Virus record (IMG/VR): IMGVR_UViG_3300033978_000856
Location: 1 to 22,551 of that record
Length of the DNA stretch: 22,551 bases
Source: a virus
Reading direction: 5' to 3' (one strand)
Part shown: one piece after another, positions 5,967 through 19,563 of the stretch
How positions within the stretch are numbered: the stretch's first letter is position 1
How the letters are laid out: the number at the start of each line of letters is the position of its first letter
Notes under the pieces: generated by a model
Database searches by the model: none
The model's input: only the letters and a program-made list of their open reading frames with translations
What the model was told of the DNA's origin: nothing
Translations under genes and position numbers: made by a program

Positions 5967-6215
5967 TTATCGTTGGCGATCTATCCGTTTCTGTTCCATT
6001 TTTTTTTGCATCCTTTTTTCTATGAATGCAATTTGTGATTTATAGCCGATCGTTCTATGGATCAGACTATTAATTAATTCGAGTCTGCTCAACTTATGAT
6101 CCAACGGATCATATTGATTAATAGATTTGCAGAAATCTATTAATCCTTTTTTTGTAGGGAAGTTATTTAAATAAGCGATCGCAGTATCGCGATCGGTTAT
6201 TTCTTCCCAGGCTAC
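5967..6215 (-). pseudogene. Start-less ORF behind the Pro-repeat gene (frame -1)
   Basis: Reading on the minus strand from 6215, an 82-codon frame ends at TAA 5967-5969. It looks genuinely protein-coding (KVAWEEITDRDTAIAYLNNF, LIDFCKSINQYDPLDHKLSR, then a Lys/Arg-rich end). It has no ATG, GTG or TTG until well inside it. It lies in the -1 frame relative to the 194-codon gene whose stop is at 6212-6214. Either it is the real C-terminal domain of that protein, cut off by an indel in the repeat or reached by -1 frameshifting, or it is a decayed gene. Coding character is moderately convincing. Confidence 0.5.
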
Positions 6216-6796
6216 TTTACCGGTGGCGCGGACGGTGGCTTGCTAGTTGGTGGCGCGGACGGTGGCTTGCTAGTTGGTGGCGCGGACGGTGGCTTGCTAG
6301 TTGGTGGCGCGGACGGTGGCGCGGATGGTGGCGCGGATGGTGGCTTGCTAGTTGGTGGCGCGGACGGTGGCTTGCTAGTTGGTGGCGCGGACGGTGGCGC
6401 GGATGGTGGCGCGGATGGTGGCGCGGATGGTGGCGCGGATGGTGGCGCGGATGGTGGCGCGGACGGTGGCTTGCTAGTTGGTGGCGCGGACGGTGGCGCG
6501 GATGGTGGCGCGGATGGTGGCTTGCTAGTTGGTGGCGCGGATGGTGGGATATCCGATTCATCAACCTCAACTAATTTAGTTTCTAATTTCTGAGATTCTA
6601 TACCGGCATTAATCGCGCTATTATTACTTAACTGCAATTTAGCAAGTATTTTCTGAGAATTATCAAAATAGGTTTTTAAATTATTAATAGCGTCTTGACT
6701 ATTTTGATTCAATTCTACCAATAGCGCGGCCGTTTTTTCTAATTCTGTAACTTGACTTTTCAAGCTTGCTATGATTTGATCTTTATTGTCTGTCAT
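6212..6796 (-). CDS. Coiled-coil plus proline-rich repeat protein
   Basis: 194 residues. Residues 1-75 are a coiled coil (IIASLKSQVTELEKTAALLV and following). From residue 86 to the end there is almost only SAPP (18 copies) and TSKPP (7 copies), ending in VK. Such Pro-rich tails form extended stalks or linkers and are typical of surface, tail-fibre-like or scaffold proteins. No signal peptide or membrane segment is seen, so it is cytosolic or virion-associated. The abrupt end at the repeat, with a coding-like frame right behind it, suggests the C-terminal domain is missing. Confidence 0.65.
   Translation of the reverse strand: MTDNKDQIIASLKSQVTELEKTAALLVELNQNSQDAINNLKTYFDNSQKILAKLQLSNNSAINAGIESQKLETKLVEVDESDIPPSAPPTSKPPSAPPSAPPSAPPTSKPPSAPPSAPPSAPPSAPPSAPPSAPPSAPPTSKPPSAPPTSKPPSAPPSAPPSAPPTSKPPSAPPTSKPPSAPPTSKPPSAPPVK
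6221..6541. repeat. 12-bp/15-bp tandem repeat array
   Basis: The array mixes two units on the plus strand: GGTGGCGCGGAY (12 bp, SAPP on the minus strand) and GGTGGCTTGCTAGTT (15 bp, TSKPP). Runs of SAPP between TSKPP units, N to C, are 1, 3, 7, 1, 3, 1, 1, 1. Units are multiples of three, so copy-number changes keep the frame. The repeat also leaves one other minus-strand frame and one plus-strand frame open; these are shadows. Confidence 0.95.
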
Positions 6797-6875
6797 GATT
6801 TTAATCTCTGTTAAGTTGTGATTTGACTAATGAGAATAGATCGTTATGTGTCAGATAACGATCTATCAATTGATT

Positions 6876-7727
6876 CTAATTTTGTGACGCGATCGCTGCT
6901 TCTATGTCTTCCTTAGACACGCCGTTATCTATGATGTAATTGCATAACAAGCCGCGATCGCTGCATTTACGTCCACCTTTAGAAAATGCGTAATGCAATC
7001 GTGTCCAGGTGGTATCAGGATTTTCATGCCAAAAATTAACAATGTAATCTATCCACTCTTGACTAATTACAATATCTTTATCCGTTCCCATTAAAACATT
7101 GATAACCCTCTTATCTTCATTGATTACAGAAGAACTATAGCCACCGTTTAAGCCATCTGCAATGATTTTATCGGTTGGGATACCGTGCCACGATTTTAGC
7201 AGATTGTAGTAATTAAAATTTTTGGCACTTACGCGATCTTTTTTCTCGGTTTGAGTTTTTTCTGGTTTACTTTTTTTAGTTTTTTTGTTCTCATTTTTAA
7301 CGGCTTTAACGGCTATCTTTGATAGCTTGCCGATTAGCTTTAAAATTTGATTGCTGGATAGATCAGCGCATAGATCAGCGATCGCGTCAATTGTAGTTTC
7401 GTTGGTAGTTTCGTCTGTAGTTTCGTTGGTAGTTTCGTCTGTAGTTTCGTCTGTAGTTTCGTTGGTAGTTTCGTCTGTAGTTGCATCTTCTGTAGTTGAT
7501 ATCGTTACAATATGGTTATCTGACAACCAATAAGAATCATTAAAATTAGTAGCCTCATTTATGAAGCTAAAATATTCACGTTCATCGTGAGTTAATAACT
7601 GGATGCAAGATACATCGTGTTTATTATCCAGTGTAATTTCATGTTTGTGGTTAGTTAGTATTTTGATTTGTTTAGAGTCAAATCTGTCTTTTAGTTCAAT
7701 CAAGTTAAATGTTTTAGTGTTTGTCAT
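6876..7727 (-). CDS. Hypothetical protein with Thr/Glu repeat linker
   Basis: 283 residues, not recognised. An N-terminal domain (about 1-80) is joined by a repeat linker of TTDE/TTNE units (about 80-112) and a Lys-rich segment to a C-terminal domain of about 120 residues. That domain contains NFNYYNLLKSWHGIPTDKI and WIDYIVNFWHENPDTTWTRL. The linker comes from a 12-bp tandem repeat. The gene is first after the long non-coding stretch and has a promoter-like box at 7791-7796. The leader GAGAAAGAAAA before the ATG is a weak ribosome site. Confidence 0.65.
   Translation of the reverse strand: MTNTKTFNLIELKDRFDSKQIKILTNHKHEITLDNKHDVSCIQLLTHDEREYFSFINEATNFNDSYWLSDNHIVTISTTEDATTDETTNETTDETTDETTNETTDETTNETTIDAIADLCADLSSNQILKLIGKLSKIAVKAVKNENKKTKKSKPEKTQTEKKDRVSAKNFNYYNLLKSWHGIPTDKIIADGLNGGYSSSVINEDKRVINVLMGTDKDIVISQEWIDYIVNFWHENPDTTWTRLHYAFSKGGRKCSDRGLLCNYIIDNGVSKEDIEAAIASQN
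7393..7488. repeat. Eight 12-bp tandem units
   Basis: GTAGTTTCGTTG and GTAGTTTCGTCT units alternate irregularly (the last is degenerate), giving the TTDE/TTNE linker. The array is in phase with codons, so it can expand or contract without breaking the gene. Confidence 0.9.
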
Positions 7728-7798: not shown

Positions 7799-8046
7799 GT
7801 TTACAGAAAATATTCTAAAATGCTTACTGTATATAGATTTGAACATCTGTACTATTATCAATTAATCACTATATATATAGTTAATTAATGTCAATTAATC
7901 ACGGCTTATATAATTAAAAATCGGCTCACCTAAGCGTACCTTGTTTACTGAAAAATCACGGTTAAATAATTTAATGCCGCACTAAAAAGCGTACCGCAAG
8001 AAATATTGATTACGGTACATTTAATATTATTAAAATGCGGTTAACG

Positions 8047-8115
8047 GATCACGTATTCGATCCCGTGACGTTGTATAAAGCATATATAGGATCGCGGGAT
8101 CGTTGATCCGGGATC
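8047..8115. repeat. GATCCCG/CGGGATC dyad cluster
   Basis: GATCCCG (8059-8065) is the inverse of CGGGATC (8095-8101), and GATCCGGGATC (8105-8115) is itself nearly palindromic. Several GATC motifs in 70 bp suggest a protein-binding cluster. Confidence 0.5.
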
Positions 8116-8123
8116 ATGAATTA

Positions 8124-8175
8124 TTTTAGTGATTTTTAGTGAAAATTTTTAGTGATTTTTAGTGATTTTTAGCGA
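8124..8175. repeat. Iteron-like array of TTTTTAGTGA
   Basis: Five copies of T(4-5)AGYGA start near 8124, 8133, 8146, 8156 and 8166; most are spaced 10 bp (one helical turn), with one 13-bp gap. The last merges into a HIP1 site. Origin iterons or cooperative regulator sites are possible. Confidence 0.65.
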
Positions 8176-8220
8176 TCGCTCTATTCAATAATATGAGTTT
8201 AGCGATCGCTGGGCTGTCAA

Positions 8221-8904
8221 TTACTCAAATGAATTAATAGCCATTTCCACTAGATCATCCGGCGTGGCCATTTTATGAGTTTTAGCTTTACGTTCTGCCA
8301 TGCGTTCAAATAACTCAATGGTTTCCTGCTCAAACTTCTGCATATTATCTCTGTCGCATTCAAAATGACGACGGTTGAACAATCTTTCGTTAACTTTGAT
8401 TGTCCATTGCTTATAGTCATTTGGATTTGGCTTAGTTCCAAACAGTTCTAGCGAGCGATCGCGTAAAATATCAGTCCATAACTTCCTAGCCATGATACGC
8501 TTCATCCGTAAAGCTATTAACTGGTTTCGTTCGTCTTCCTCAACCTTCTTACCAAAAGCTCTATCAAATCTGCGCTCTAGTCCTTCTTGCAGTATTGCAT
8601 CAATAAATGCTCTAGCGGTTAAGTTCCCTCGCTTGTCCAGTTCTCTGATCAGCTTGGTGAAATCAGCTAGATCGATAGCATTTACGGCTTTTGGGTTTAG
8701 CTCAGTTTTGACTTTTAAGTGGGACTGGAAAGCTATGCCATACAAGGATTCTAGCTGTTTTGCACTTCTATTTGGTGGGACTAAATTTATGCTTACTATC
8801 TGGGGAATAGCTACTATATATCTTCCATCTGGCAGCATCAATCCTTCGATTTTTGCAAATCCTAAATCAACTGTTGCAACAACAGCTTTTGTGGTATCGT
8901 TCAT
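8221..8904 (-). CDS. Conserved cyanobacterial phage/regulatory-type protein
   Basis: 227 residues from ATG 8904, chosen because GAGG lies 7 bases upstream; the frame is open to 8961. The N-terminal part (FAKIEGLMLPDGRYIVAIPQ, then TELNPKAVNAIDLADFTKLI and ELDKRGNLTARAFIDAIL) follows a pattern I recall from cyanobacterial hypothetical proteins, loosely like Bro-N/antirepressor proteins of phages. The C-terminal half is helical and Arg/Lys-rich. It is monocistronic between two non-coding regions and could be a phage regulator. Family resemblance is from memory; the regulatory role is inferred. Confidence 0.65.
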   Translation of the reverse strand: MNDTTKAVVATVDLGFAKIEGLMLPDGRYIVAIPQIVSINLVPPNRSAKQLESLYGIAFQSHLKVKTELNPKAVNAIDLADFTKLIRELDKRGNLTARAFIDAILQEGLERRFDRAFGKKVEEDERNQLIALRMKRIMARKLWTDILRDRSLELFGTKPNPNDYKQWTIKVNERLFNRRHFECDRDNMQKFEQETIELFERMAERKAKTHKMATPDDLVEMAINSFE

Positions 8905-13478: not shown

Positions 13479-14123
13479 TCAATTTATAGCCTCAATTGTT
13501 CTCTCAGAAATTCGCATTACAACCTTCTTTTTTTGTTTAAGACTAGAATTACTATTAATAACTTTACCCACTATTCCTGAGTACCAAACAGCATTATTTT
13601 CTACATAAATTAAATGTGCTTTAATCTCAGATAGTGGAATTGGCATAGTCATCACTTGCCGAGGAATACAAATATCAGTCCTGATTTTTACTAATTTATC
13701 ATTAACATTCTCGCTAACAAAGATTCTCCCATCTTGGGATATAGCAATTTGGTCATCAAATTTAACTTCTGACTTTTTGACAATCTCTAAACCCTTGGCT
13801 TCACTTTCCTTTTCCCCTTCACTTATTAAATACCAAGCGATCGCGCTATCAATAGAATGAAGTGTAAAATCACTGCTGCCGGAAAACTTTAATTTACCAA
13901 CTTTATTTTTGACTTTAGTTTCTAATATTTCTGTAATTATAGAATTTTCTTCCACAATAAAATCTGAACCAGCCGCAATAGAGGTTAATTCTGCGGGTTG
14001 GCTATTACCCTGAAACGTCATTGATAATTCAGTTTCAGACAGTGTGATGGAATTGTTGACAGCGATCGCATCAACAACTTTTCCTTTAACTTCTAGCCAA
14101 GCCCGACAGAATTGTTTAGACAT
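13479..14123 (-). CDS. Hypothetical virion-like protein
   Basis: 214 residues, beta-rich. It starts MSKQFCRAWLEVKGKVVDAI, and long strand-forming stretches follow (NNSITLSETELSMTFQGNSQ, KVGKLKFSGSSDFTLHSIDS). Its ATG shares TAATG with the stop of the upstream structural gene, so the two are co-translated. This suggests a virion component, perhaps tail or decoration, but the family is not recognised. Confidence 0.6.
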   Translation of the reverse strand: MSKQFCRAWLEVKGKVVDAIAVNNSITLSETELSMTFQGNSQPAELTSIAAGSDFIVEENSIITEILETKVKNKVGKLKFSGSSDFTLHSIDSAIAWYLISEGEKESEAKGLEIVKKSEVKFDDQIAISQDGRIFVSENVNDKLVKIRTDICIPRQVMTMPIPLSEIKAHLIYVENNAVWYSGIVGKVINSNSSLKQKKKVVMRISERTIEAIN

Positions 14124-14767
14124 TATACTCTAGGGATACCTGCGTCAGTTTGCAAAGTGTCTATCGAACGTGGACCTGCTGTAGTCAAATTGGAAACAGG
14201 AAGTACAACTACCGGAGAAGCTGCGCCGTTATACCAGTTGCCACCTAAAGTAACAGTGGGGAATTTATTTGTGTTGACAGTGAAAGAAACATCCAAGTCT
14301 ACAACTTTCCGATGTAGTGTTGTTCCAGAGTTAGCGGTAGTCGTGGCAATAACAACGTTGCCAACTGTACTAGAATCTGTATTCGCCAAAGTAAACGCTT
14401 GACCGGGAATCGCACTAGTTATGGTAATAACTCCGGCGGCTGATGTTGCCGCTACGTTAGGATTAGTGTTAATCAGTGTTGCCAAAAATGCGGCCATCGT
14501 TGTCACTGTGTCGCCAGCAGCTTTTTTGTGGCGATAAATCCAGGTTGTACCACCGACTGTTAAATGAACAGCAATATCATCGCCGTTAGAACCAGCCGAC
14601 AATGTTACTGTGGAAACTTGAGCAACAGCAGAGGGATCTAAGGTTAGATTCTGAGTGATTCTGACTGTGTTAGCACTGGGAAAACTTATTTGATAATCTG
14701 TTTCTAAAGTAGTTGCTGTCACGGTAGCAGAAGTGGGACGATCGTATGATAGAGTTCCAACAGACAT
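14123..14767 (-). CDS. Phage structural protein (tail or surface, beta-sandwich)
   Basis: 214 residues, rich in Thr, Ala, Val and Asn, with almost no Cys. The segment WIYRHKKAAGDTVTTMAAFL, then NPNVAATSAAGVITITSAIP and GQAFTLANTDSST, matches a pattern common in phage tail/baseplate and adhesin proteins (a helix bringing in a pair of strands with A-T-A-x-G-x-I-T-I-T). The end is strand-rich with conserved Gly/Asn. First gene of the minus-strand virion operon. Likely a major tail or decoration protein; the exact role is undecided. Confidence 0.7.
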   Translation of the reverse strand: MSVGTLSYDRPTSATVTATTLETDYQISFPSANTVRITQNLTLDPSAVAQVSTVTLSAGSNGDDIAVHLTVGGTTWIYRHKKAAGDTVTTMAAFLATLINTNPNVAATSAAGVITITSAIPGQAFTLANTDSSTVGNVVIATTTANSGTTLHRKVVDLDVSFTVNTNKFPTVTLGGNWYNGAASPVVVLPVSNLTTAGPRSIDTLQTDAGIPRV

Positions 14768-14810: not shown

Positions 14811-14853
14811 AATTAAGCGATCGCTCTAACAAAAAGTAGGCGATCGCTTAATT
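14811..14853. terminator. HIP1-centred hairpin
   Basis: A 14-bp perfect stem, AATTAAGCGATCGC (14811-14824) with its complement at 14840-14853. It lies between the end of the minus-strand Csx3-like gene and the start of the structural gene. There is no strong T-run, so termination is only likely. Confidence 0.5.
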
Positions 14854-14855
14854 AT

Positions 14856-15260
14856 TTATTTTTTCTTCTGATAAGCTTGTCTCTCTGGCGCGTGATTTTT
14901 GTGGACTTCGCAATATGGATAAATTGCGTCACTCCTTAAATCAGAATTACACACAAGGCAGTTCATACTAGCTGCTATTTCACTAGCTATAGGCATATCC
15001 GGATCAAATGATGTTGTGACAATAGCTATAGGCTTGCCCGCTTCTTTAATGGCTTGCCATTTACATCTATTCCTGTAGTGGCTAATTATGGGTGCTGCTA
15101 ACCAGTAGGGTATTCTCCCACAGGATATGATTAGTCCCTTTGTTCCATTAATTTCCGGGAATGTCATCTGTAGTAAGTCTAGTCTATCTGCTTTTCCTCT
15201 GACTTGAATAAATATCCAAGTCTCCAGGTCTTTTTCTACGGTGGTAATTTTTGTAGTCAT
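14856..15260 (-). CDS. Csx3-like protein with C-terminal zinc-finger-like tail
   Basis: 134 residues from ATG 15260 (ATG 15269 and TTG 15284 also possible; no clear ribosome site). Residues 41-54 (KGLIISCGRIPYWL), then APIISHYRN and, after an insert, IAIVTTSFDPDM (79-89), follow the order of the Csx3 (Cas_csx3) signature. In that family a strand ends in a Gly-Arg-x-Pro turn, then a helix with His, then a strand ending in Asp-Pro. The N-terminal strand/helix spacing also fits. Unlike typical Csx3 it ends in C101-x2-C104 ... C117-x2-H120, a likely zinc site. Csx3/Crn3 proteins cleave cyclic oligoadenylates of type III CRISPR systems. It is divergent from a second Csx3-like gene. The Csx3 call is from memory of the family and is moderately sure. 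Confidence 0.6.
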   Translation of the reverse strand: MTTKITTVEKDLETWIFIQVRGKADRLDLLQMTFPEINGTKGLIISCGRIPYWLAAPIISHYRNRCKWQAIKEAGKPIAIVTTSFDPDMPIASEIAASMNCLVCNSDLRSDAIYPYCEVHKNHAPERQAYQKKK

Positions 15261-15288
15261 GATCAACATCTTAGCTAAATTCAAAATA

Positions 15289-15321
15289 ATTATAGTAGGA
15301 TGCTTGACAACTTACTATAAT
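15289..15321. promoter_or_regulatory. Operator-like inverted repeat in the divergent promoter
   Basis: ATTATAGTA (15289-15297) is repeated inverted as TACTATAAT (15313-15321), a perfect 9-bp dyad with a 15-base centre. It places a TATAAT on each strand and encloses the plus-strand -35 TTGACA, so one bound dimer could shut both genes. Confidence 0.7.
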
Positions 15322-15333
15322 CTTTGCTATTGT
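15304..15333 (+). promoter_or_regulatory. Promoter of the plus-strand Csx3-like operon
   Basis: -35 TTGACA (15304-15309), an 18-bp spacer and -10 TATTGT (15328-15333). It overlaps the inverted repeat 15289-15321. The minus-strand gene can use TATAAT at 15294-15289. Confidence 0.55.
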
Positions 15334-15372
15334 AATTTACATAATGAAGAAGCCAAGGAGCTACTACATAAT

Positions 15373-15675
15373 ATGTCCACTTATAATATTGACTTAGTTG
15401 ACGGCATCGTTAAAGTTGGATTTGGCGAGCCAGCGCAAAATGACCAAATCGTTAAAGATGCAAAAGCCCAAGCTGATGATTTGGTAGCTTCCGGCAGATT
15501 GAATGGTCAATTGGTTAAGATTAGCGGTCCCGCTTCTCTTCCTGTTGCTTTTGTTCTAGCTAAATCTTTTTCTGCGGTTGCTGCGGCGATCGCTTGCTAT
15601 GATCCCAAATTGCAAAAATATGTGGTTGCTATCAGCCACAATCCTAAATACCAAATTGGTGATTTAGTTGATTAA
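15373..15675 (+). CDS. csx3: Csx3-family protein (ring-nuclease fold, altered His positions)
   Basis: 100 residues from ATG 15373 (AGGAG at 15356-15360, a long 12-base spacing); the frame is open upstream but the extension is not Csx3-like. VKISGPASLPVAFVLA (48-63), YDPKLQKYVVAISHNP (76-91) and GDLVD at the end match cyanobacterial Csx3. The family fold binds and, in Crn3, cleaves the type III CRISPR messenger cA4. In the relatives I recall, the helix after LPVA carries AHxxxH; here it reads AKSFSAVA, so both His are lost, while the Asp-Pro and Ser-His pairs are kept. It may bind the messenger without fast cleavage, act on another ligand, or be inactive. No CRISPR array or cas gene is in the window. 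It heads a plus-strand gene series. Confidence 0.75.
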   Translation: MSTYNIDLVDGIVKVGFGEPAQNDQIVKDAKAQADDLVASGRLNGQLVKISGPASLPVAFVLAKSFSAVAAAIACYDPKLQKYVVAISHNPKYQIGDLVD

Positions 15676-15682
15676 GGAGATT

Positions 15683-15724
15683 ATGATTAAAAAGCTAATC
15701 AAATTAAAAGGGTTTTTCCATTAG
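15683..15724 (+). CDS. Possible 13-residue leader peptide
   Basis: AAGGAG (15674-15679) precedes an ATG that opens MIKKLIKLKGFFH and stops at 15722-15724, inside a hairpin arm that masks the next gene's start. It is too short to prove coding, but the arrangement is that of a leader peptide. Confidence 0.35.
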   Translation: MIKKLIKLKGFFH

Positions 15725-15746
15725 CTCACCCTACTAAAGAGCTAAT
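15693..15746 (+). promoter_or_regulatory. Alternative hairpins upstream of the small Cys/Arg protein
   Basis: ATTAGCTC (15720-15727) pairs perfectly with GAGCTAAT (15739-15746), one base before the ATG at 15748. The same arm can instead pair with AGCTAAT at about 15693-15699. Two exclusive stems over a possible leader peptide suggest translation-coupled control. Confidence 0.5.
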
Positions 15747-15747
15747 C

Positions 15748-15927
15748 ATGAAATTCAATCCTATTCGTATTTGTTCTTGTCGCGCTTGCCGTCATGGCCG
15801 CCAACGCCGTTTCTACTACAAAGTAGCTAACCGTAAGTTTCGCCACAAAAACAAACAATCTTTAAAAAACCTCAGCGATTTTGATAAATTCAATGAAATC
15901 TTAATCGCTGCTGGCTATACCGACTAA
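15748..15927 (+). CDS. Small basic Cys-rich protein (59 residues)
   Basis: 59 codons from ATG 15748. It starts MKFNPIRICSCRACRHGRQR and then RFYYKVANRKFRHKNKQSLK: a C-x-C-x2-C cluster in an Arg/Lys-rich context, suggesting a small zinc-binding, nucleic-acid-binding protein. The last 20 residues form an acidic/helical end. There is no clear Shine-Dalgarno; the start sits against a hairpin. A terminator follows 9 bases later. Unrecognised. Confidence 0.6.
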   Translation: MKFNPIRICSCRACRHGRQRRFYYKVANRKFRHKNKQSLKNLSDFDKFNEILIAAGYTD

Positions 15928-15935
15928 TCTTTTAG

Positions 15936-15961
15936 GGCATATATTTTGATATGCCTTTTTT
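15936..15961 (+). terminator. Rho-independent terminator
   Basis: Stem GGCATAT/ATATGCC (15936-15942 with 15949-15955), loop ATTTTG, then six T. The next gene starts only 4 bases later, so it may act as an attenuator. Confidence 0.75.
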
Positions 15962-15964
15962 AAT

Positions 15965-16411
15965 ATGCAGCAAAAATGCTTAGAAAAATGGAATAGTAAT
16001 TTATTTTGGGAGTTAGTTGATCCTCCTAAAGTAACCATCTCCAGTTATCTCAACTGGGTTGAATATGAGGAATACATGAAAGCTATTCTGCTTGATTGTG
16101 TTCCTGGAGAACTCGGTAGATTATTGGTAGACTTCCCCGCCAACTCTACCGAAGACAACAGATTGCACACGCATCCAGCAAGCGATCGCTGTGTAACAGT
16201 TATCAAAGGTAGTGGAGATTTTATCTGCTATCGTGACAAAAAAGTTCAAAAGTTTCCTTTAGTTCCTGGCGTTCGTGTCTGGATGCCAAGAGGAATTTTA
16301 CACACTTTTAAGAGTGGAAATGAAGGGTTGTTAGTTGAGAGCCTACACAATCCCTTTATTCCACTAGACCATCCCAAATGCTTGATTTATCCAAAGTTAG
16401 CAATTGAGTAA
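15965..16411 (+). CDS. Small cupin-fold protein
   Basis: 148 residues from ATG 15965. Cupin motif 1 is visible as LHTHPASDRCVTVIKGSGDF (HxH, but no Glu at the usual place), and motif 2 as PGVRVWMPRGILHTFKSGNE with PxG and His. A single-domain cupin could bind a metal and a small molecule (enzyme or sensor). The start at 15965 directly follows a T-tract and has no ribosome site; ATG 16076 has GAGG 5 bases upstream and would give 111 residues that still hold the whole cupin core. The stop overlaps the TTG alternative start of the next gene. The fold is fairly sure; the substrate is unknown. Confidence 0.75.
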   Translation: MQQKCLEKWNSNLFWELVDPPKVTISSYLNWVEYEEYMKAILLDCVPGELGRLLVDFPANSTEDNRLHTHPASDRCVTVIKGSGDFICYRDKKVQKFPLVPGVRVWMPRGILHTFKSGNEGLLVESLHNPFIPLDHPKCLIYPKLAIE

Positions 16412-16418
16412 TTTAATT

Positions 16419-17618
16419 ATGCGTCAAGAGTGGCTAGGTTTGTTAAGAGATTTGCCAGTCTCTATAAATAATTTGGCAGACCCCAGTATTTTACGGCTTT
16501 CCACAGAGGCAAAGCTAAACCAGTTGGTGAGCGATCGCCACACTGGACCGGTGGCAATCATCACTAAAGGAGATTTATCTTCTCCTTGGTGGAAAGAACG
16601 ATTAAAGTATTGGGCATCAAATCTTAATTTATTTGTGTTTGCTTCTATTTCTCATCTCCCCAAAGAGATGGAATCAGCACCAACAGAAAATCGCTACAAA
16701 ACATTAACTGCGGCTAGAGAGTCCGGTGCTTGGGCGATCGCTTACATTCGCCCCATTATCCACACAATCAACGACTCTCCAGAGTTGATCGCAGAAATGT
16801 TTACTCGGAGTGTTGATGCTGGCTGTCATGCGATCGTTTCATCTGGATTTCGAGGAGATAATCAAGTTGTATCCGATGCAGGGATGCAAAATGTACCCGC
16901 ACCAGATGGACAAAGCTGGATGCGAACTTTAAAGATCACCCCAAAATCAACATCTCAATTGATGCGATCTTTAGCTGCGAGTTTAAAAGTTCCATACTGG
17001 ACTAGAACTCAATGCGCGGTAACAGCATTGATGGGAAAAAAACGGGCATTAAATCCGTATTACAACGCTCCCAAATTTGTTGACTGTTTAACCTGCCCAA
17101 TTTCCGATAGCTGTGCAGGTGTAGCGCAATTTATCAAACCAGCACCACACAGTATTGAACTCCTAGAGTATCTAGGTTTTAAAATTGAAGTTCACACAGC
17201 CTCGGAAAGATATCAAAAATGCCCAGTAGAGGTTCGCTCTCAGTGTTCCCTCTGCTGTACGAACTGCCCCAAAGCCCCCGATATGGGGATGCCGTACATT
17301 AATATCCGCACTCACGACAATGGTTTTCCCTCTTGGGGTGAAATGAGTTTTGCCAGGTTTATCACCGGAGGAATGCTGGCAACTGATCCATTAATCCCAC
17401 CTGGCGAAAATTCAAATATTCGCATCCATCCTCGCTTTGAATTGCCAAACCAATTGTATGGAGTCAATTCTTGGATGGTATGGAGCGAATACGTTCCAGC
17501 CAATAAATGCTTTGATTGCAAGTATTGTTTCTTGTCCATGTTTAAAGATGTTCTGCCTCCAGAATATCAGGTGACAGTTGGCATGAGTCCGGTTCAAATC
17601 CTCCAACATGAAATTTAG
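16419..17618 (+). CDS. Radical-SAM-barrel-like protein lacking the N-terminal CX3CX2C
   Basis: 399 residues from ATG 16419 (TTG 16404 also possible). Residues 43-150 look like the middle and end of a spore-photolyase-type radical SAM barrel: GPVAIITKGDLSSPWWKERL, LFVFASISHLP, an Arg-Tyr-x-Thr helix, IAYIRPIIHTINDSPELIAE and HAIVSSGFRGD. The part that normally carries CX3CX2C is missing. Cys cluster elsewhere: C223/C226/C232, C268/C276/C279/C280/C283 and C364/C367/C370 (CFDCKYC). These could hold Fe-S clusters or zinc. It may be truncated, work with the complete radical SAM protein encoded at 18440, or be a derived family. It follows the cupin directly. Homology is judged by eye. Confidence 0.6.
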   Translation: MRQEWLGLLRDLPVSINNLADPSILRLSTEAKLNQLVSDRHTGPVAIITKGDLSSPWWKERLKYWASNLNLFVFASISHLPKEMESAPTENRYKTLTAARESGAWAIAYIRPIIHTINDSPELIAEMFTRSVDAGCHAIVSSGFRGDNQVVSDAGMQNVPAPDGQSWMRTLKITPKSTSQLMRSLAASLKVPYWTRTQCAVTALMGKKRALNPYYNAPKFVDCLTCPISDSCAGVAQFIKPAPHSIELLEYLGFKIEVHTASERYQKCPVEVRSQCSLCCTNCPKAPDMGMPYINIRTHDNGFPSWGEMSFARFITGGMLATDPLIPPGENSNIRIHPRFELPNQLYGVNSWMVWSEYVPANKCFDCKYCFLSMFKDVLPPEYQVTVGMSPVQILQHEI

Positions 17619-17627
17619 GAGTTAATC

Positions 17628-17795
17628 ATGGAAAGAAAAGATCTGAAAATTTACGAATTCCGACTGGCTCATCAAGGAATGCCTCAAACTATCGAGGCTT
17701 TCAACCTAGATGAAGCTGTGACAGAAATAAATAGAATGTATCCCTATGCTCAATTTGGGCAGGTTACATTCAAAGGATATGCTTCAAGACAATAA
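17628..17795 (+). CDS. 55-residue small protein
   Basis: 55 codons, with AGGAG 6 bases upstream of ATG 17628. The sequence (MERKDLKIYEFRLAHQGMPQ, then a DEAVTEINRMYP helix and a short strand) is a plausible small alpha/beta domain. It sits 9 bases after the barrel protein and 7 bases before the kinase. Unrecognised. Confidence 0.6.
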   Translation: MERKDLKIYEFRLAHQGMPQTIEAFNLDEAVTEINRMYPYAQFGQVTFKGYASRQ

Positions 17796-17802
17796 TTGAA
17801 AA

Positions 17803-18450
17803 ATGAAAATTATTTTCATTGGTTTGCCTGGATGCGGAAAGACAACTCAAGCAAAAAGATTGTCTGAACATCTGGGCATTTCTTATATCTCAATGCGGCA
17901 GCTAGTTCAAGAGTCTGATTTAGTTAAATCCGATTCTTGGCAACCACTATCCGATAATTTAGCCGTTCAGATTTGTGGTAAAGCGATCGCTGACAAGTCA
18001 GATTTTGTTCTTGATGGTTTTCCTAGAAATAAGAAACAGCTTCAAGAACTAAAAATAGAAGATTCCGTTGTTATCTTTTTGGATATTTCCTTGGAGGAAA
18101 GTGAACAAAGAATGTTAAAACGTGGCGATAAGAAAGAAGCGATCGCTACTCGTGTCACTCTAGAAAGACAACGTTTTCCAGAGTTAATAGAAAGTATTCC
18201 CAGGCATAAATGGGACGGAGGTTTGGCAGACATTGTTATCAAGATTAATGGTCAAAACTCGTTAAATGCCATTACGTCAGAAATAACTAATCATCCTATT
18301 ATTTGGTTCATGGGATTAAGTAAAGAAGTTCAAAATAAACTGCTTTATTTTTATGATCCTTATGATGGATGTTTTGGCTCTATCTTTAATCTAAATGATC
18401 CAGAGTATGCAGTTAATAAGCTAAGAGAGGAATTAAAAGATGAGTTTTAA
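17803..18450 (+). CDS. Adenylate-kinase-like P-loop nucleotide kinase
   Basis: 215 residues. Walker A GLPGCGKTT (7-15); DGFPRNKKQ (71-79) is the adenylate-kinase NMP-binding signature; VVIFLDISLEESEQRMLKRG is the strand before the LID. The LID is short and the C-terminal 50 residues (IIWFMGLSKEVQNKLLYFYD and onward) are not part of usual adenylate kinases. It probably phosphorylates a nucleotide or a modified nucleoside. Its stop overlaps the radical SAM start by 11 bases, so they are co-translated. No ribosome site is visible. The kinase call is firm; the substrate is not known. Confidence 0.85.
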   Translation: MKIIFIGLPGCGKTTQAKRLSEHLGISYISMRQLVQESDLVKSDSWQPLSDNLAVQICGKAIADKSDFVLDGFPRNKKQLQELKIEDSVVIFLDISLEESEQRMLKRGDKKEAIATRVTLERQRFPELIESIPRHKWDGGLADIVIKINGQNSLNAITSEITNHPIIWFMGLSKEVQNKLLYFYDPYDGCFGSIFNLNDPEYAVNKLREELKDEF

Positions 18451-19321
18451 ATTTGAGGTTGGTGAACCTGCTTGCCCTGTAGCTTGTAAATACTGCCACG
18501 TCACAGAACTTGATGTTGACAGAACTGCTAATTGGAGTCAGGGCTTAGTGGGAGTAAATAAGGCGTGTACTTTCATGAATGTGCCACCTTGGATCAATAA
18601 AGACAAAGCGACAAGTGATCGCTTTTACAATTTTCCCTGGCGTTTATTAAAAGGGGATTTCGCCGGCTGGACGGCTGTTACAGATGGTTTAATGCCGGAT
18701 CTGAGAAAATATTTTTGGCACTGGATTGAGATGGTTTCTCCTATAGCCAAACTTACAACTGTAGTCAGTAAATGGCCAATCAATGCCGATTTTATGGAGG
18801 AGTTATCCAGAATAGAGAATTTCTATCTGGTAATCACAATAACTGGCGCAGAAGCCATTGAAAAGGTCTCCACACGACTTTTGCTCCGTAATCTGGAGAG
18901 AGCTAAATTTTATGGAGTAAAGGCACTGCCTATGGTTCATCCTTATATTTCTGGAGTTAGCAATATTTCATTCCTTCCAGAATTAAAAAAATTAGGATAC
19001 GACGAAGTTTGTTTTAAAGGACTTCGCTATAATTCCGAAACAATGGGTTCTTGGATGCCCGAAACTTCTAAACTTCTGTACCAAGGACACGGCATAGAGG
19101 AAGTTTTACCCGATGACGGATGGCAACAAAAAATAGAAGATGCAGGTTTGTCTCTGCTGTCTCCAAAGCAGTGGTATTACAGGGAAGCAATCAATAATCA
19201 ACCAAAATTATCGCAAGATGAAGCGATCGCTAACGTAGATCAACTTCTCCATCTAGCTCAAATTGCCAGTTCGGCTAACGAGGATGTTGTGAGGCGATCG
19301 CTTGTTGAACGTCGAATGTGA
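18440..19321 (+). CDS. Radical SAM protein (spore-photolyase-like)
   Basis: 293 residues. The cluster motif CPVACKYC (C12, C16, C19) is a canonical CX3CX2C. Further barrel features are GWTAVTDGLMPDLRKYFWHW, LTTVVSKWPINADFMEEL, LVITITGAEAIEKVSTRLLL, and a strand with KALPMVHPYISG. It would cleave SAM to make a 5'-deoxyadenosyl radical; the substrate is unknown. ATG 18440 has GAGGAA upstream and overlaps the kinase stop. It resembles the barrel part of the protein at 16419, so the two are probably homologous partners. It ends 17 bases before a strong terminator. Confidence 0.8.
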   Translation: MSFKFEVGEPACPVACKYCHVTELDVDRTANWSQGLVGVNKACTFMNVPPWINKDKATSDRFYNFPWRLLKGDFAGWTAVTDGLMPDLRKYFWHWIEMVSPIAKLTTVVSKWPINADFMEELSRIENFYLVITITGAEAIEKVSTRLLLRNLERAKFYGVKALPMVHPYISGVSNISFLPELKKLGYDEVCFKGLRYNSETMGSWMPETSKLLYQGHGIEEVLPDDGWQQKIEDAGLSLLSPKQWYYREAINNQPKLSQDEAIANVDQLLHLAQIASSANEDVVRRSLVERRM

Positions 19322-19338
19322 AAAAATAATTGAAATTT

Positions 19339-19361
19339 AGCCCCGTCACAGGGGCTTTTTT
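19339..19361 (+). terminator. Rho-independent terminator after the radical SAM gene
   Basis: Stem AGCCCC/GGGGCT (19339-19344 with 19351-19356), loop GTCACA, then a T-run. The stem is identical to that at 13452. Confidence 0.9.
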
Positions 19362-19408
19362 ATTGGCATTTAACTTAATTTGGATAAGAGTTCAGTAGCA
19401 TGGAGTAT

Positions 19409-19432
19409 GGCTAACGCTACGCTACGCTATTG
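19409..19432. repeat. Short GCTAC-type tandem repeat
   Basis: GCTAACGCTACGCTACGCTA, a low-complexity repeat of the kind seen between genes in filamentous cyanobacteria. The 242 bp between the terminator and the portal gene hold nothing else firm apart from an AT-rich, promoter-like TATGAT at 19528. Confidence 0.45.
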
Positions 19433-19563
19433 GAATGAAGAATGAAAAACATTTTTCTTTTATCTTCTCTACTCCCTACTCTCTGCTATATCAAGTTTTC
19501 TGTATCCTGAATCTTTATTTAATTTGATATGATACTAAATATCAGTAATTTATTAAAATCTCT

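Follow-up and report, generated by a model that had tools for sequence, protein, structure and literature searches.

A divergent pair of Csx3-like genes in a mobile phage module, with a possible role against type III CRISPR signalling

Head to head on a phage contig, at positions 14856 to 15675, lie two small genes, CSX3_2 on the plus strand and CSX3_1 on the minus strand, that belong to or resemble the Csx3 family. All 22,551 bases of one IMG/VR record make up the window (the whole stretch of DNA that we analysed). Whether the pair constitutes a mobile phage module that acts against type III CRISPR signalling, with CSX3_2 sequestering cyclic tetra-adenylate (cA4) and CSX3_1 serving as its partner or regulator, we consider an evenly balanced question. 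A counter-defence role had been raised as a possibility by an earlier sequence-only reading of this DNA, and we retain it as the likeliest one.

The phage contig and its cargo island

The contig, a virus record, is akin to Aphanizomenon phage vB_AphaS-CL131 (CL131): a near-identity DNA search of 50,697 catalogued phage records matched this phage alone, with 83% identity across 30% of the window. The first description of the region as prophage-like was accordingly given up. Upstream of the pair is a 214-aa protein (14123-14767) with a CL131 orthologue at 83%; downstream, from 19564, is a portal/minor head gene (CL131 orthologue, 82%; PHROG category head-and-packaging). According to the CL131 annotation, the structural gene and the portal adjoin in that phage, 70 bp apart. 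In the window they are separated by an insertion:

14813-19527, no strand assigned: cargo island of 4.7 kb, missing from CL131 (blastn junction, L001 8763-8773)

The Csx3 pair stands first in this island. Both open reading frames were confirmed on opposite strands, as was their position between structural genes and portal. They are followed, in order, by p59, a cupin-like protein, p404, a 55-aa protein, an adenylate-kinase-like protein and a radical-SAM-like protein. No cas genes were seen among the open reading frames of the window; the neighbours of the pair are phage and cargo genes. Elsewhere, at 6212-6796, a 194-aa phage protein ends in a long proline-rich repeat of SAPP and TSKPPSAPP units, across which three frames are open.

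CSX3_2, the plus-strand protein

15373-15675, plus strand: CSX3_2, 100 aa, homologous to the stand-alone Csx3 of cyanobacteria, with loss of the metal-site histidines

The open reading frame spans 15241-15675, and the likeliest start is the ATG at 15373, which is preceded by an AAGGAG ribosome site. CSX3_2 scores 28.4 bits (E 1.5e-6) against PF09620, above the Pfam gathering score of 21 bits, and matches the PADLOC Csx3-AAA model at 5.9e-24. Both proteins of the pair exceed the Pfam threshold and both fall well under the equivalog cut-off of TIGR02579 (18.1 and 21.1 versus 55.4 bits; NCBIfam); these are the two profile models proposed for checking them. The nearest plasmid relatives of CSX3_2 are stand-alone, 101-aa Csx3 proteins of two Nostoc plasmids, 58% and 55% identical; their genes lie next to those for Csx3-AAA and for type III proteins, and run divergently from that of a WYL-type CRISPR regulator (TIGR03985). 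By sequence, CSX3_2 is a member of Csx3 at the superfamily level, and the same comparisons show that it descends from the stand-alone Csx3 found in type III loci of cyanobacteria.

Structure prediction is consistent with this assignment. The AlphaFold (AF2) model of CSX3_2 has a pLDDT of 70, and its sole Foldseek match at E <= 0.001 is cA4-bound AfCsx3 (6yud; E 3.4e-4, probability 1.00, TM 0.61). By VIA-align, 89 of its residues superimpose on AfCsx3 with Z 7.7, a score that the cA4-binding region of Cat1 equals, on a scale where unrelated STAS folds reach Z 6, little below. A PDB profile match at 2e-22 is circular because AfCsx3 itself was in the alignment; the Foldseek match is an independent test. 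With this structural match and the one in Pfam, the outcomes named beforehand as refuting the first reading mostly did not come about.

CSX3_1, the minus-strand protein

14856-15260, minus strand: CSX3_1, diverged Csx3-like protein, 134 aa, with a C-terminal zinc-finger motif and basic tail
14901-14960, minus strand: CSX3_1 zinc-finger motif, C-x2-C ... Y-P-Y-C-x2-H, kept in the window, L008 and the distant L034 homologue

The reading frame extends over 14856-15284, with the likeliest start at the ATG at 15260. The match of CSX3_1 to PF09620 is again above the gathering score of 21 bits (24.0 bits, E 3.4e-5), and five PADLOC Csx3 models match weakly (AAA-Csx3, 1.3e-6). Compared profile to profile (hhalign), CSX3_1 and Csx3 align with 62% probability (E 7.5e-5). 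Its AF2 model is too poor for structure search (pLDDT 41.5), so that the comparison with AfCsx3 proposed for both proteins bears out CSX3_2 alone. Homologues of CSX3_1 occur in other viral loci, identified here by L numbers: 98% identical in L004, 92% in L008-L010 and 29-34% in L034 and L052. Of the two distant ones, L034 matches no Csx3 model and L052 does not match PF09620; the L034 result counts against our preferred explanation.

In the hhalign alignment the SFDP of CSX3_1 falls on the SHxP strand of Csx3, and therefore the H80 position is Phe and the D69 position Glu (Asn in L034). The Asp-Pro that had been taken for a Csx3 feature is thus not the catalytic one, and the L034 homologue lacks it. 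Homology to Csx3, first claimed for both genes, is upheld by the Pfam and PADLOC matches, with the qualification that CSX3_1 has none of the catalytic positions: equivalents of D69, R71 and H80 are absent and the ligand-contact residues are largely lost. What is conserved is of another kind, namely PE-x-x-GTKG, YRNRxxWQ, C-x2-C...PYC-x2-H and a Lys-rich end. The suspected zinc-like tail is therefore real. CSX3_1 is under strong purifying selection (dN/dS 0.03, window versus L008), from which we take both reading frames to be genuine genes. On its sequence, CSX3_1 is probably a heavily diverged, paralogue-like relative of Csx3 rather than an enzyme of the Csx3 family. We found no relatives of it in 84,980 prokaryote species, plasmids or INPHARED phages, the genome scan having used short peptide patterns that may miss distant ones. 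To our knowledge, no Csx3-like zinc-finger protein has been described in the role of divergent partner.

Distribution and mobility of the pair

The divergent arrangement is not confined to the window. L034, a 154-kb phage whose portal is 38% identical to that of the window, carries both genes head to head (CSX3_1 34% and CSX3_2 55% identical to the window). L004 and L005 are phages whose portal is unrelated to that of the window, and yet the pair and the cupin gene are 93-94% identical to it in DNA and are bordered by truncated fragments of p221 and p404; recent horizontal transfer is therefore indicated. The two-gene module first suspected here is thus borne out, as a mobile one. In L008-L010, CSX3_1 and the palindrome described below are kept, and CSX3_2 and most of p59 have been deleted at a clean junction that joins 15334 to 15910. 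The pair is therefore not obligate, which counts against our preferred explanation.

Several observations concern these and related loci in their own right. At L004 7961-8236, a 91-aa chimeric reading frame combines the first ~56 residues of p221 with the zinc-finger end of CSX3_1, apparently a product of recombination. At L034 8001-8681, a Csx3 reading frame carries on, in the same frame, into 130 aa of unrelated C-terminal sequence, possibly a fusion or the loss of a stop codon. L035 (6158-8297), apparently a Bacteroidota phage, encodes a viral Csx3 with intact active-site His beside two PAPS-reductase-like genes, a possible counter-defence cluster. Two phage-like elements are filed as plasmids: L026 (Nostoc C052 pC052_F), with a Csx3 gene (7959-8273) beside terminase and ribonucleotide reductase genes, and L045 (Pyramidobacter YE332), with a canonical crn3 (6603-6887) among integrase, LexA, DNA polymerase and VapE genes.

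The intergenic region and a possible regulatory circuit

15289-15321, no strand assigned: palindrome, operator candidate, 11-bp arms and 11-nt spacer, ATTATAGTAGG-ATGCTTGACAA-CTTACTATAAT, over the -35 region
15304-15333, plus strand: CSX3_2 promoter-like site, TTGACA, 18 nt, TATTGT; 10/12 matches, TG before the -10, by consensus match only

A palindrome with fixed spacing lies at the -35 region in the window, L004, L008 and L034. That of L034 has the same place and spacing as that of the window and a different arm sequence; the two have in common the core AT[GA]CT[TA]GACAACTT, which overlaps the -35 box of the promoter-like site and, among 56 loci, occurs only here. The case for an operator rests on this same place, same spacing and common core. 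It is suggestive, not proven, because these genomes contain many inverted repeats of this size, one to five per 20 kb for any given spacer. The idea that 11-bp arms with an 11-nt spacer form a phage-wide class of operators was discarded. A spacer of 11 is not special in these genomes, and a Markov-null probability of 0.002-0.003 per intergenic region is therefore too optimistic.

These features invite an explanation that is chiefly regulatory, in which dimers of CSX3_1, by way of zinc finger and basic tail, would bind the palindrome and repress the divergent operon until a ligand relieved repression and turned on CSX3_2 and the cargo. We regard it as unlikely. The recurrent palindrome favours it, as do the survival of palindrome and CSX3_1 where CSX3_2 and p59 have been deleted and the WYL-type regulator that is divergent from csx3 in Nostoc CRISPR loci; the commonness of inverted repeats, the lack of a known DNA-binding domain in CSX3_1 and the erosion of its ligand-contact residues stand against it.

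The CSX3_2 active site

15526-15639, plus strand: CSX3_2 active-site stretch, SGPASLP loop, AKSFSA with the H57 and H61 positions, YDPK with D69 and the R71 position, and SHNP with H80, from ungapped alignments with CRISPR-locus and viral relatives

In AfCsx3 the Mn ligands are likely to be H57 and H60, while R71 holds on to the scissile phosphate and H80 pins cA4; H60 and D69, both of them essential, sit on opposing faces of the dimer (PMC7371418). Of these hallmarks of Crn3, CSX3_2 has D69 and H80, and so keeps the cA4-facing Gly, Asp and His; it lacks the Mn-site histidines, H57 being replaced by Lys and H61 (H60/H61) by Ala. R71 has become Lys and R46 Pro. With AfCsx3/Crn3 (PDB 6yud, 3wzi), a cA4 ring nuclease, CSX3_2 thus shares predicted fold, D69 and H80 equivalents and dimer-face logic, and differs from it in these four positions and in falling under the TIGR02579 equivalog cut-off. 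The Nostoc type III stand-alone Csx3 (WP_114082153.1, pNsp_a) is closer. It is of the same size as CSX3_2, 58% identical over the full length, divergent from its neighbour gene, and has the same GP-S-P loop, D69, K71 and H80; unlike CSX3_2 it retains H57 and a His one place past H60 (H61), and it is found beside cas genes rather than a portal gene.

Since the change of R71 to Lys and of R46 to Pro is common to the CRISPR-locus relatives, neither is phage-specific; we count both against sequestration of cA4 nonetheless. The metal-site His pair is absent identically in the window and in L004, which comes from another metagenome. Among mobile-element relatives, both His are present in L034 and L035, one in L029 and the Nostoc C052 phage-plasmid, and neither in L036; the Pyramidobacter prophage-like record has canonical HxxH, DPR and H. 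A general rule that mobile-element Csx3 proteins lack the metal-site His was discarded on account of the intact L034, L035 and Pyramidobacter examples. Retention varies, and the loss is therefore a trait of this lineage.

CSX3_2 might nevertheless be an active ring nuclease, either through other residues or by borrowing its missing face from CSX3_1 or a host Csx3, and this we hold to be unlikely. Borrowing is conceivable because two dimers together form the active site of Csx3, and AfCsx3 H60A and D69A complement one another in trans (PMC7371418). A helix His in CSX3_1 (SHYRNR) would fit, too: it is Trp in the L034 homologue, whose CSX3_2 keeps both His. However, CSX3_2 is without both metal-site His and CSX3_1 without equivalents of D69, R71 and H80, and CSX3_1 retains the helix His in L008-L010 even though CSX3_2 is absent there.

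Proposed role of the pair

We return to sequestration. On its Gly/Asp face CSX3_2 probably still binds cA4, and the conserved His of the second face would pin it. With both Mn-site histidines gone, cleavage is improbable; by analogy, CSX3_2 may stack cA4 between dimers and so sequester it, the model being the AfCsx3 H60A mutant in vitro. Csx3 binds cA4 with a KD below 0.1 uM, extended fibres with cA4 are described for the inactive H60A variant of AfCsx3, and expression of Csx3 reduces Csx1 immunity in E. coli (PMC7371418). Csx15, similarly, sequesters cA4 in head-to-tail filaments, and such a binder can act as a sponge (PMC13148439). Uptake of cA4 by CSX3_2 would blunt cA4-activated effectors during infection. 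Type III-B and I-D systems are present in strains of A. flos-aquae, two of which hold spacers against CL131, the relative of the window phage (PMC6293099).

CSX3_1, in turn, may be a partner subunit of CSX3_2 or a divergent regulator that reads the palindrome, with about equal probability. Its position, the palindrome and their joint persistence after loss of CSX3_2 favour the regulator; the partner is favoured by common descent and by the two faces of the active site in Csx3. The boldest version, a signal-responsive counter-CRISPR circuit in which CSX3_1 would sense cyclic oligoadenylate, free the palindromic operator and induce a catalytically dead CSX3_2 that polymerises around cA4, seems to us quite improbable.

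The cargo cassette

15748-15927, plus strand: p59, small basic Cys-rich protein (CxCxxC), deleted along with CSX3_2 in L008-L010
15965-16411, plus strand: cupin-like protein, slightly under the Pfam Cupin cut-off, syntenic in L004, L008-L010 and L016
16404-17618, plus strand: p404, cysteine-rich protein of 404 aa, no family
17803-18450, plus strand: adenylate-kinase-like P-loop protein (Pfam ADK, 3.7e-13)
18440-19321, plus strand: radical-SAM-like protein, CPVACKYC as Cx3Cx2C motif, from weak matches of relatives to PF04055 and synteny

The genes from cupin through p404 and adenylate-kinase-like to radical-SAM-like protein form a mobile cassette whose order is kept in the window (15965-19321), L008 (5998-8783) and L016 (7555-10761), the last a very different viral contig of 74 kb. 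p59 is ~70% identical by eye to L034 10735-10914, and better conserved than the Csx3 genes. By eye p404, with its many cysteines, resembles a partial radical-SAM barrel; relatives of it were found neither in catalogued phages or plasmids nor in a genome scan by short peptide patterns, and none of the radical-SAM-like protein in catalogued phages. A link between the adenylate-kinase-like protein and the AAA domain in Csx3-AAA was rejected: judged by eye only, the P-loop contexts look different, and the Pfam match is to ADK.

We know of no CRISPR link for a cupin/radical-SAM cassette, and this counts against counter-defence. The Csx3-like proteins could serve the cassette, for instance as a subunit that binds a small molecule, with no role in CRISPR. 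The synteny of CSX3_1 with cupin, p404 and radical-SAM genes in L008-L010 agrees with such a role, to which we give little credence: in L016 the cassette has no adjacent Csx3, and in L004 (p404 truncated) and L034 the pair occurs without the full cassette. That CSX3_2 is a functionless, decaying remnant of a host-acquired gene, as loss of both metal-site histidines and its precise deletion in L008-L010 might suggest, is scarcely credible given its dN/dS of ~0.11 (window versus L004), the recent transfer from phage to phage and the preserved ribosome site and promoter.

Relation to known systems

The phage ring nuclease families already catalogued are Crn2 (AcrIII-1), Csx20 and Csx16. AcrIII-1 (DUF1874) is likewise phage-encoded with cA4 as presumed target, and differs in family and fold and in being enzymatic, where CSX3_2 is predicted not to cleave; when both proteins were scanned against Pfam with E values up to 1 allowed, PF09620 was the sole match, and DUF1874 did not appear. 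The phage sponges Tad1, Tad2, Acb2 and Acb4, and the sponge-like CRISPR protein Csx15, are comparable by analogy, through the proposed sequestration of a nucleotide signal; no family of the Tad1/Tad2/Acb2 type appeared among the Pfam or PHROGs matches, and no sequence relation was found. Pyramidobacter YE332 crn3 (WP_317539484.1), on a prophage-like record of 18 kb, is also a Csx3 on a phage-like element, in contrast with canonical residues (HxxH, DPR, H80), a score of 72.3 bits and a single gene, next to which no zinc-tailed partner was seen. A tblastn search with CSX3_1, CSX3_2 and two further small Csx3 queries found no relative in 50,697 phages, and we found no description of a phage Csx3 in the open-access literature. 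Across 28,114 phage genomes, a survey published in 2025 names AcrIII-1 (36), Csx20 (4) and Csx16 (2), and Crn3 is not among its named families (PMC12409355).

Significance

Phage antagonists of cA4 are already known, and a phage Csx3 pair would be new among them; if the proposed role is true, phage Csx3 adds a further family. The metal-site His of CSX3_2 have been lost naturally and the binding face kept, which makes the choice between cleaving and sequestering directly testable, and its viral relatives with intact sites are the matched controls.
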